From the NCBI GenBank assembly GCA_019638775.1, contig JAHBTD010000001.1:124001-188000 (forward strand): a stretch of 64,000 nucleotides of DNA, in the 5' to 3' direction. Below the pieces are notes generated by a model. The model was not told where the DNA came from. It saw only the letters and a program-made list of their open reading frames with translations, and did not search any database. Position 1 is the first letter of the stretch. Each line of letters opens with the position of its first letter. Below are positions 2,417-63,670 of the stretch, one piece after another. The stretch is from Fimbriimonadaceae bacterium. GTDB taxonomy: Bacteria; Armatimonadota; Fimbriimonadia; Fimbriimonadales; Fimbriimonadaceae. A program made the position numbers and the translations under genes.

Positions 2417-2468
2417 GGTGCAGGCATCCGTAGTATGGTCAGACATTGAGGACAATGTCCCTCCAGCG
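2417..2468. repeat. Dispersed palindromic element, copy upstream of the dehydratase gene
   Basis: The stretch carries GGTGCAGGCATCC (2417-2429) and GGACAATGTCCCTCCAGCG (2450-2468). Both blocks recur at 57542-57631 inside the kinase gene: the second in the same orientation (57581-57599), the first as its reverse complement (57614-57626). The block around 2443-2459 is itself nearly self-complementary (ACATTGAGGACAATGT). Confidence 0.75.
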
Positions 2469-56096: not shown

Positions 56097-57167
56097 ATGA
56101 GTAGGCTCCTGAGCAGGTTTGCAGTGGCTGTGTCGGTGGCGGTCTGTTTGGCCGGGCACGTTGATGCGCAGGTGTCCCAACTAACTCCCCAAGAGCGCGC
56201 CATCGCCCACTGCTTGACTTTGATCCGCGATTGCCAATTGCCCGATGGAGCCTTCACGATGAAGAAGGATGGGCCCGTCTGGATTCAGCCGTACTTCGCC
56301 AACCACGCCGCATTGGCACTGGTCGCGGGCAAGCAAGAGTCGGACCTTCCTAGGGTTGCCAAATGGCTCGAATGGTACGCCGCTCATCAGCACTCAAACG
56401 GTACCGTCAACGACTTTGTAGGCAGTCGCGACGACTATAAAGACCGAGGCACGACCGACGCCACTGACTCGACGGCAGCAACGTTTTTGATCGTGGTGGA
56501 ACGGTATCACAAGGCAACCGCCAAGCTGCCCGATAGTGTTCGAGAAGCAGCCAAGAACGCCGTTGCTGCCATTGAAAGCGTTACGGACAGGGCTGACGGT
56601 TTAACTTGGGCTCACGCCAACTACCGTGTGAAATATCTGATGGATAACATTGAGGTTTATGGCGGGTTGGTGTCTGCGGAGAGGCTCTTTATTGCGTTGG
56701 GCGAAGACAAGCAGACTTCGAAGTCGGCGAGATTACGCAACGTGCTTGGCAACCGTTTGATCGGATTTTGGCAAGCCAAGGAGGAGCGTTATGCGTATGC
56801 GCTCCTGGAAACGGGAGCTTACGAAGTCCGCCCGGCCGATGCCAAACAACACCTTGGAACTGAATGCATGGCTAATCTCTTTGCGCTGACTTGGGTGGCC
56901 AAATGGCGTGGCCAGCTTTGGAGCGAGCTTAGATCGAAGTTCAAACCCGACACTGGCCTCGCTCCACAAGCTCCAGCCGAGCGATGGTTCATGGCGGCGT
57001 CTCGCTCTGGCTCGCAGGAAACAGTTGAGGATTATCGACAGCAAACGATCTCGGAAGCGCTGACATTCAATGCAGATAACGTGTACCTGCATCGACCCGC
57101 GGTGACGGCGTTGGCCCTCCTTGAGGGAGCAAGCTGGCTTTCCGGCTTGACCGATCGACGGCCATGA
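56097..57167 (+). CDS. Secreted alpha/alpha-toroid protein (prenyltransferase/squalene cyclase-like fold)
   Basis: 356 residues with a signal peptide (FAVAVSVAVCLAGHVDAQ). Repeats such as HCLTLIRDCQLPDGAFTMK, HQHSNGTVND and HANYRVKYLMDN, with helical pairs between, fit a terpenoid-cyclase-type toroid, but the catalytic DxDD of squalene cyclases is lacking. A short hairpin TAGGC-TTTT-GCCTA (56080-56093) lies just before the start. The stop overlaps the next gene's ATG by 4 bases. Function unknown; expected in the periplasm. Confidence 0.65.
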   Translation: MSRLLSRFAVAVSVAVCLAGHVDAQVSQLTPQERAIAHCLTLIRDCQLPDGAFTMKKDGPVWIQPYFANHAALALVAGKQESDLPRVAKWLEWYAAHQHSNGTVNDFVGSRDDYKDRGTTDATDSTAATFLIVVERYHKATAKLPDSVREAAKNAVAAIESVTDRADGLTWAHANYRVKYLMDNIEVYGGLVSAERLFIALGEDKQTSKSARLRNVLGNRLIGFWQAKEERYAYALLETGAYEVRPADAKQHLGTECMANLFALTWVAKWRGQLWSELRSKFKPDTGLAPQAPAERWFMAASRSGSQETVEDYRQQTISEALTFNADNVYLHRPAVTALALLEGASWLSGLTDRRP

Positions 57168-58042
57168 AGAGCGACCCATTCTCCATGGACGTCAAAGTCC
57201 GGGAACTTGCCGAGTCCTGGGGGTTCCAACCCGAGGTCGAGCTTCCGAGCGGGTACTGCTCGCGGGTGTTTGCCGACGAGACGCGGGTTTTGAAGGTTCC
57301 TTTTCAGGGGGAAGAGCTGACCAGTGGGTGCGTGGCGGTGGTACGGATGTCGGGCACAGTCGGGCCGAAGGTGCATGCTTGGGATGAGGCGACAGGGGTG
57401 ATCCTGATGGATCGACTGTTGCCGGGGACTTCCCTTTCACAAGCAGGATTATCCGATGAAGAATGCCTCAACATTACAGTTGAGTTTGCTCACCGGATAC
57501 GTGAAAACCCAGTGGATGCGCTGGAGTGGGAGTTGACGGATCAGGCTGGAAGCCTGCACCATAACGAGAGTGGACATTGTGGACAATGTCCCTCCAGCGG
57601 ATCGGGCAAGCAAGGATGCCTGCACCACAATCGGTTGATGCCCCTTCGCAACTACGTTGATGCCGACGACCCGCTCGGGCAGGAGCTATTGCAAAGCACC
57701 ACTGAAGAGGTGTTTTTGCATGGTGATTTGCACCACAGCAACATTCTGCTTGGCCCAGAGGGTTGGGTGGTGATCGACCCCAAGGGATTGATTGGCGATC
57801 CGGCATTTGAGCCGTCGGCGTTTATCCGCAATCCGATCGAGGAGATTGGGGAGTGGGAAGACTTGCCTTTGATCTTAGAGCGACGGATACGGCGGTTTGC
57901 CAAAGAGTTGCAGCTTGATCCTTGGCGTGTGTGGGGCTGGAGCTTGGTCGTGGTGCGCGATGGTGGCACGGAGCCGGGGCATGCTTGGGACAAGGTACGG
58001 CTGGCTCTTGAAGAGGTTGGCCAACTATTTTCCCATCGCTGA
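57164..58042 (+). CDS. APH(6)/hydroxyurea-type phosphotransferase with an in-frame repeat insertion
   Basis: 292 residues. Kinase marks: VLKVPF (ATP-binding Lys), Brenner motif FLHGDLHHSNIL at about 183-194, and metal-binding VIDPKGLIGDPAFEPSAFIRNP, the pattern of streptomycin 6-kinase/hydroxyurea phosphotransferases. Residues 127-156 (57542-57631) are not family sequence: this stretch is a dispersed palindromic repeat read in frame, giving SLHHNESGHCGQCPSSGSGK and a second LHHN. It falls between the hinge and the Brenner motif, where a loop can be tolerated. The protein may still be active; the substrate is unknown. Confidence 0.82.
   Translation: MKSDPFSMDVKVRELAESWGFQPEVELPSGYCSRVFADETRVLKVPFQGEELTSGCVAVVRMSGTVGPKVHAWDEATGVILMDRLLPGTSLSQAGLSDEECLNITVEFAHRIRENPVDALEWELTDQAGSLHHNESGHCGQCPSSGSGKQGCLHHNRLMPLRNYVDADDPLGQELLQSTTEEVFLHGDLHHSNILLGPEGWVVIDPKGLIGDPAFEPSAFIRNPIEEIGEWEDLPLILERRIRRFAKELQLDPWRVWGWSLVVVRDGGTEPGHAWDKVRLALEEVGQLFSHR
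57542..57631. repeat. Palindromic repeat inside the kinase gene
   Basis: Ninety bases, exactly 30 codons. AGCCTGCACCA (57551-57561) and GGATGCCTGCACC (57614-57626) flank TGGACATTGTGGACAATGTC and CCTCCAGCG. GGACAATGTCCCTCCAGCG is identical to 2450-2468. The reading frame is kept through the whole element. Confidence 0.8.
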
Positions 58043-58741: not shown

Positions 58742-59760
58742 AGGGGGAGGGTGGCGAAGAGCGCGGCTGAATGCGGGGGCTGGGCAACAGGCTAAGACAG
58801 GGCTCGCAGAATCTGCGATGACGCAGGGGCCGTGCCACCCAATCACCCCCTCCTTTGGTTCCTCCCCCCTCAAGGGGGAGGAGGGCCTTTGCGATGGGTG
58901 GTGGTACTCGGGCAAGGCAGCGTGGTCCATTCACCCTCACCCAGTTCGCTGCGCTCACTGCCTCCCCCCTCAAGGGGGAGGAGGGCCTTTGCGATGGGTT
59001 GCGGTGCTCAGGCAAGGGATGCGCGGTCCAATCACCCCCACCCTGTTCGCTGCGCTCACAGCCTCCCCCCTCGAGGGGGAGGAAGTCCTCGAGCCAAGGC
59101 CGAAGGGAATCCCCCTCCCTTGATGGGAGGGGGATAAAGGGGGAGGGTGGCGAAGAGCGCGGCTGAATGCGGGGGCTGGGCAACAGGCTAAGACAGGGCT
59201 CGCAGAATCTGCGATGGCGCAGGGGCCGTGCCACCCTATCACCCCCCTCCTTTGGCTCCTCCCCCGTCAAGGGGGAGGAAGATCCTTTGCGTTGGGTGGT
59301 GGTACTCGGGCAAGGGATGCGCGGTCCAATCACCCCCACCCTGTTCGCTGCGCTCACAGCCTCCCCCCTCAAGGGGGAGGAAGTCCTCGAGCCAAGGCCG
59401 AAGGGAATCCCCCCTCCCTTGATGGGAGGGGGATACAGGGGGAGGGTGGCGAGGAGCGCGGCTGAATGCGGGGGCTGGGCAGCAGGCTAAGACAGGGCGC
59501 GCAGAATCTGCGATGGCGCAGGGGCCGTGCCACCCGATCACCCCCTCCTTTGGTTCCTCCCCCCTCAAGGGGGAGGAAGCTCCTTTGCGGTGGGTGGTGG
59601 TACTCGGACAAGGCCGCTCTGTCCAATCACCCCCACCCAGTTCGCTGCGCTCACAGCCTCCCCCCTCAAGGGGGAGGAGGGCCTTTGCGATGGGTTGTGG
59701 TACTCGGACAAGACCGTGCTATCCAATCACCCCCTCCTTTGCTTCCGTCATCCCCGATTG
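58706..59760. repeat. Composite tandem array of two palindromic modules
   Basis: Module A, about 150 bases, opens with CCCCCTCCCTTGATGGGAGG and contains GGCTGAATGCGGGGGCTGGG; copies start at 58715, 59111 and 59410. Module B, about 100 bases, is centred on CCTCCCCCCTCAAGGGGGAGG; copies near 58862, 58963, 59065, 59262, 59361, 59561 and 59659. Order: A-B-B-B-A-B-B-A-B-B. Copies differ by only a few percent. Open frames across the array on both strands encode Pro/Gly-rich nonsense and are not genes. Confidence 0.9.
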
Positions 59761-63358: not shown

Positions 63359-63670
63359 CTAGTTCCCTGACTCTTTGATGGCTTTTTCGGCTTTGTCGAC
63401 GATAGGCATTGCTTCTGGAAAAGTAGATTTGATAACGCTCTTTTTGCGGTTCAGGAGACCTTCAAAGCCTTCTTTTCGAACGATGTATCCCGCAATGCTG
63501 AACCCGATGATGGCTGCGCCGAGCACGGCGCACAAGAGAGCGGTTTTCCAGTTGCCGAGTCGTGCTTTCATCGCACTCGTAGGTACGACCGGGCTTGCGG
63601 CTGAGTTGCGATGAGAGCCGTTGGACTGCTTCCCTTTGCGCACAAGCGGCAACGACAGTGCGTTACCCAC
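63359..63670 (-). CDS. Small single-helix membrane protein, unknown
   Basis: Up to 103 residues; the ATG at 63571 (MKARLGNWKTALLCAVLGA) would give 70 and is as likely as the one at 63670. One membrane helix (TALLCAVLGAAIIGFSIAGYIV), then a short basic/acidic tail (KEGFEGLLNRKKSVIKSTFPEA, VDKAEKAIKE). The upstream end runs into repeat DNA. No family recognised. Confidence 0.5.
   Translation of the reverse strand: MGNALSLPLVRKGKQSNGSHRNSAASPVVPTSAMKARLGNWKTALLCAVLGAAIIGFSIAGYIVRKEGFEGLLNRKKSVIKSTFPEAMPIVDKAEKAIKESGN

Follow-up and report, generated by a model that had tools for sequence, protein, structure and literature searches.

REP-like palindromic repeats inserted in frame in an APH-type kinase gene of an armatimonad bacterium

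The window analyzed in this study (a 64,000-nucleotide stretch of a Fimbriimonadaceae genome) contains a gene for a kinase of the APH(6)/hydroxyurea type, whose open reading frame is intact from start to stop (Table 1). The encoded protein passes the Pfam PF04655 threshold and shares with this family both the fold and the catalytic motifs, with K44, HGDLHHSN (residues 186–193) and DPKG (205–208) all retained. Comparison with PDB structures revealed a fold similar to those of 5-methylthioribose kinase, APH and choline kinase. Against the NCBIfam equivalog NF012171, the kinase scored 69.4 bits, far under the cut-off for a true APH(6) enzyme (325 bits). An AlphaFold model (45 homologues as input) had a mean pLDDT of 85.9, and values below 50 were found only at residues 129–155, i.e. 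within a loop encoded by the repeats described below. According to this model, the repeat-encoded loop of approx. 38 residues is probably floppy. The codon score also changes along the gene, being −0.118 per codon in the insert and positive in both flanks.

Table 1. Features of the kinase locus and of the related intergenic site (positions refer to the window)
Feature	Position	Strand	Remarks
APH(6)/hydroxyurea-type kinase gene, host of the insertion	57164-58042	+	292 aa; PF04655 (APH_6_hur), E 3.3e-23
Residues 120-157, ~38 codons missing from all family homologues	57521-57634	+	protein alignment
Hairpin C' (GGTGCAGGCTTCCAGCCTGA), diverged C-type REP unit	57541-57560	-	
Hairpin B (GGAGGGACATTGTCCACAATGTCC)	57572-57595	-	17 genome copies
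Hairpin C (GGTGCAGGCATCCTTGCTTGC)	57606-57626	-	12 genome copies
12-nt upstream flank of C unit (TCAACCGATTGT), right border of insert	57627-57638	-	same in L184, similar in other C copies
Intergenic site: B hairpin 2441-2464 (minus) and half C unit 2417-2429	2417-2468		

The extra segment was recognized by protein alignment. Kinases of the same family align with the protein up to approximately residue 120 and resume at approximately residue 157, the middle part having no counterpart in any full-length family homologue aligned, in agreement with the insertion that had originally been predicted from the DNA alone. The distance from V106 to the L/M preceding the PL motif (counted by eye against the two best homologues) is 14 residues in the native proteins versus 52 in the protein studied here, which indicates an insertion of approx. 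38 codons. This comparison drew on genomes of the same family, in which the closest homologue is approx. 49% identical over the aligned residues, and a scan of named genomes placed the nearest kinases in Armatimonadetes/Fimbriimonadaceae. The segment is also missing from widely sampled homologues beyond the family. Distant homologues in other phyla carry a longer, different segment at this site, so that the region tolerates changes in length; no residues similar to the insert were present in the rows of the distant-homologue alignment that were inspected.

The DNA of the insert is composed of three REP-like hairpins placed in tandem on the minus strand in the order C, B, C', and folding of this strand yielded three hairpins (z −3.05). 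The original prediction had described a single palindromic element of 90 bases, with blocks shared with an intergenic site of the window. Both blocks were verified: (i) the 19-base sequence GGACAATGTCCCTCCAGCG is exact at 2450–2468 and 57581–57599 (no third site was found in the window at ≤3 mismatches, and none in shuffled sequences), and (ii) GGTGCAGGCATCC at 2417–2429 is the reverse complement of GGATGCCTGCACC at 57614–57626. The 90 bases (57542–57631) do correspond exactly to residues 127–156 of the reading frame, which is open throughout. However, their borders are not natural ones, since the protein alignment gives approx. 37–38 codons and the homology of the C-unit flank (TCAACCGATTGT ahead of GGTGCAGGC) extends to 57638, and the single element has to be replaced by the cluster of three short hairpins. 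The insert contains two C-type units as direct repeats (GCCTGCACCA at 57552 and 57618). The C' unit resembles C (GGTGCAGGC) and then has a differing loop and second arm, while in the adjoining sequence ACCATAACG is found versus ACCACAATCG. A genome search with 111 bases detected no further copies of C'.

Copies of the other two hairpins exist elsewhere in the genome, as had been anticipated. They were counted genome-wide at ≤3 mismatches (for the numbers see Table 1), the analysis as a whole being based on targeted searches together with a 400-kb sample of stretches, and a third repeat, D (GGGAGGGCARCGCTYCGTCGYTGCC), is present in 50 copies; the controls (reversed patterns for B and C) gave no hits. 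The kinase insert matches the dispersed repeats at 24 of 24 positions for B and 20 of 21 for C. Among 60 relatives B was absent and C showed no excess over the control (chance level), and the repeats thus expanded in the present lineage. The absence of the kinase segment from homologous proteins, combined with the repetition of its DNA across the genome, supports its interpretation as a lineage-specific insertion. It is highly improbable that the segment is an ancestral loop of a kinase subfamily whose likeness to the repeats arose later or by chance: the longer segment of the distant homologues would be in line with such an origin, but the close match to dispersed repeats, the lack of the segment in all family homologues and the dissimilar residues in the distant rows inspected argue against it.

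The repeats have the features of REPs, i.e. they are imperfect palindromes of 20–40 nt which form hairpins and occur in many dispersed, mostly intergenic copies. Inverted pairs with regular spacing, characteristic of BIMEs, are formed by B with inverted B or B2 at a distance of 30–38 nt (11 of the 17 copies) and by C with inverted D at 33–39 nt (7 of 12). Unlike such pairs, all three units of the kinase cluster have one orientation; no other site among the genome copies has the order C-B-C', and no target-site duplication was recognizable at the kinase insert. The heads are conserved within each family (GGAG in B and D, GGTG in C). Published REPs have GTAG/GTGG as heads (PMC6006769) or are palindromes tagged with GTAG or CGTC (Di Nocera 2013, PMC3733652). 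Since GGAG and GGTG are neither GTAG, GTGG nor CGTC, B, C and D belong to neither published superfamily and represent REP-like families of their own.

We analyzed the gene context of the copies using a simple codon-usage gene caller. After correction of one misplaced start, all copies of B and C outside the kinase gene proved to be intergenic, so that these repeats, found within one gene alone, do not have the habit of residing in genes that marks the Rickettsia RPE. Two of the 49 D copies examined (the contig-end copy at C4:37-61 was left out) are truly internal to genes, and in-frame internal copies form a small minority of the 79 copies of B, C and D. One of the two D copies lies in frame in lpxB (L236:891-2300, minus strand; G000:C3, around 92241), whose product has a fused acyl-carrier-like N-terminal domain (PF00550). 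This repeat, which encodes the stretch REGIAPSMPD, adds approx. 14 residues that are missing in 24 homologues, and this parallel case supports the reading of the kinase segment as an in-frame insertion. Thus, the kinase and lpxB genes each contain a REP within the reading frame, which is kept, at a place where homologues have none. The other copy, a perfect D repeat (SGGQRSVVAE), is located in an ABC-F ATPase gene (L209:2-1819, plus strand), where it falls within the linker that precedes the C-terminal coiled coil; it was rejected as a net insertion, because the linkers of homologues are of similar or greater length.

Several further candidates were rejected as in-gene copies. The repeat precedes the conserved start of an SDR gene (L179/L143), lies near the 5′ end of the adenylosuccinate lyase reading frame (L147) well ahead of the Pfam domain, is placed at the 5′ edge of over-extended frames in L204 and L246, and falls in a small ORF without a Pfam match at 63359–63670 of the window. 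In glcF-like (L207), GDSL (L237) and rhamnulokinase-like (L248) genes, copies at the 3′ end merely supply or touch the C-terminus.

The genome contains two genes for Y1 transposases, both of which look intact and score above the cut-off of NF047646 (REP-associated tyrosine transposase, RAYT). The gene at C2:835326 has a D repeat on both sides (C2:835101-835698), an arrangement corresponding to that of a REPtron, and another type of palindrome (CCCTCCATAAC..GTTATGGAGGG) is found alongside the second (L061; G000:C4:147662-147976). Neither B nor C was found beside either of the two genes. In common with REP/BIME systems and their RAYT (TnpA-REP) REPtrons (PMC2817692, PMC8266576), the repeats studied here show a head tetranucleotide followed by a hairpin, inverted pairing and a REP beside a Y1 HuH transposase; they differ in that D alone adjoins its RAYT, with B and C linked to it by pairing or resemblance, and in that the head is not GTAG/GTGG. 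As B and C do not flank a RAYT and their heads are non-canonical, we infer their mobilization by such an enzyme from analogy and from the BIME linkage.

In our opinion, these data make it quite probable that a cluster of the REP units C, B and C' entered the armatimonad kinase gene as a mobile repeat lacking autonomy, with a RAYT transposase acting in trans as the most likely agent of its movement. The cluster would have landed in a loop at the kinase surface, between the lobes, and the insertion would have survived because its length is a multiple of three, there is no stop in the used frame and the loop may tolerate approx. 38 disordered residues. The kinase would still work, with the repeat as a tolerated cargo, and no role for it in the protein is proposed. 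With the C-B-C' order unique to this site, the insertion may have occurred in one step or stepwise. The same insertion could also have arisen without transposase activity, through template switching or recombination involving the repeats, as might be suggested by the two direct C-type units and by 14 nt of the lpxB repeat that recur in the adjoining native sequence (approx. 2% of random 200-nt stretches contain such a repeat). We consider this route unlikely: the dispersed single copies are hard to account for by recombination alone, and two intact-looking RAYT genes, one of them between copies of the 50-copy REP, make the transposase route available.

Entry of the REP cluster into a gene that remained functional has to be weighed against early decay, in which the insertion killed the activity of the kinase and the frame of the resulting pseudogene is open through luck or recency. 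The coding score of the whole gene is weak (11.8), a length divisible by three occurs by chance in one of three cases, and the used frame happens to lack a stop. Nevertheless, decay appears improbable in view of the intact reading frame with all catalytic motifs, the confidently modelled kinase fold outside the loop and the similar in-frame D insertion that stands in lpxB. The insert also contains the pattern C139-x2-C142-x9-C152-x-H154-H155, encoded wholly by repeat DNA. If this loop were to bind zinc or another metal and make the kinase metal- or redox-sensitive, a new protein function would have been made directly from a REP cluster, but such a role has very little probability.

Palindromic repeats translated in frame within proteins are also known from Rickettsia, in which the RPE recurs within genes, for RPE-4 and RPE-6 according to PMC3733652. 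The case described here differs in that B and C occur in a single gene and in that three short units make up the insert like a mosaic; recurrence of one family in many genes in a compatible frame was not observed. The original prediction pointed to Rickettsia for such palindromes and to no case in this kind of organism. The first part has to be widened, as PMC3733652 reports in-frame intragenic REPs in Opitutus terrae, Thauera, Thioalkalivibrio, Xanthomonas, Stenotrophomonas and others. A literature search (subscription papers being outside its coverage) found no report of intragenic REPs in Armatimonadota. According to PMC3733652, intragenic REPs of several bacteria encode 20–30 residues in frame and are often grouped, and RPE-4 and RPE-6 of Rickettsia are classed among the CGTC REPs. 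Like those repeats, the ones studied here are short palindromes that are mostly intergenic and occasionally in frame within ORFs; they differ in their heads (GGAG/GGTG) and armatimonad host, and neither an APH-type kinase nor lpxB nor an ABC-F linker is among the targets named in the section of that paper considered here.

The kinase gene is a real and clean example of a known, uncommon phenomenon, and the element itself is of a kind already described. With this case, in-frame intragenic REPs are also seen in a phylum that has received little study, and their heads lie outside the published set. One genome combines two cases checked against homologues (the kinase and lpxB) with a RAYT gene accompanied by its REP, and is thus suited to studying how frequently mobile palindromes persist within proteins and whether they are confined to loops by selection or by the choice of target.

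Other repeats were observed in addition to the B, C and D families. Downstream of the kinase gene (58861–59678 of the window) there are large tandem arrays with periods of 101 and 298 (approx. 90–93% matches) organized around CCTCCCCCCTCAAGGGGGAGG palindromes. The rhamnulokinase-like gene L248 carries in frame LPLDGGGQGGGDE, similar to the translation of these palindromic arrays, and may represent another in-frame repeat family. In an ABC-F homologue of a relative from another genus (L261), the linker contains SPLPKLGEGAGGGVRKAPSPGRGEGAGSG, which looks like a different in-frame repeat.
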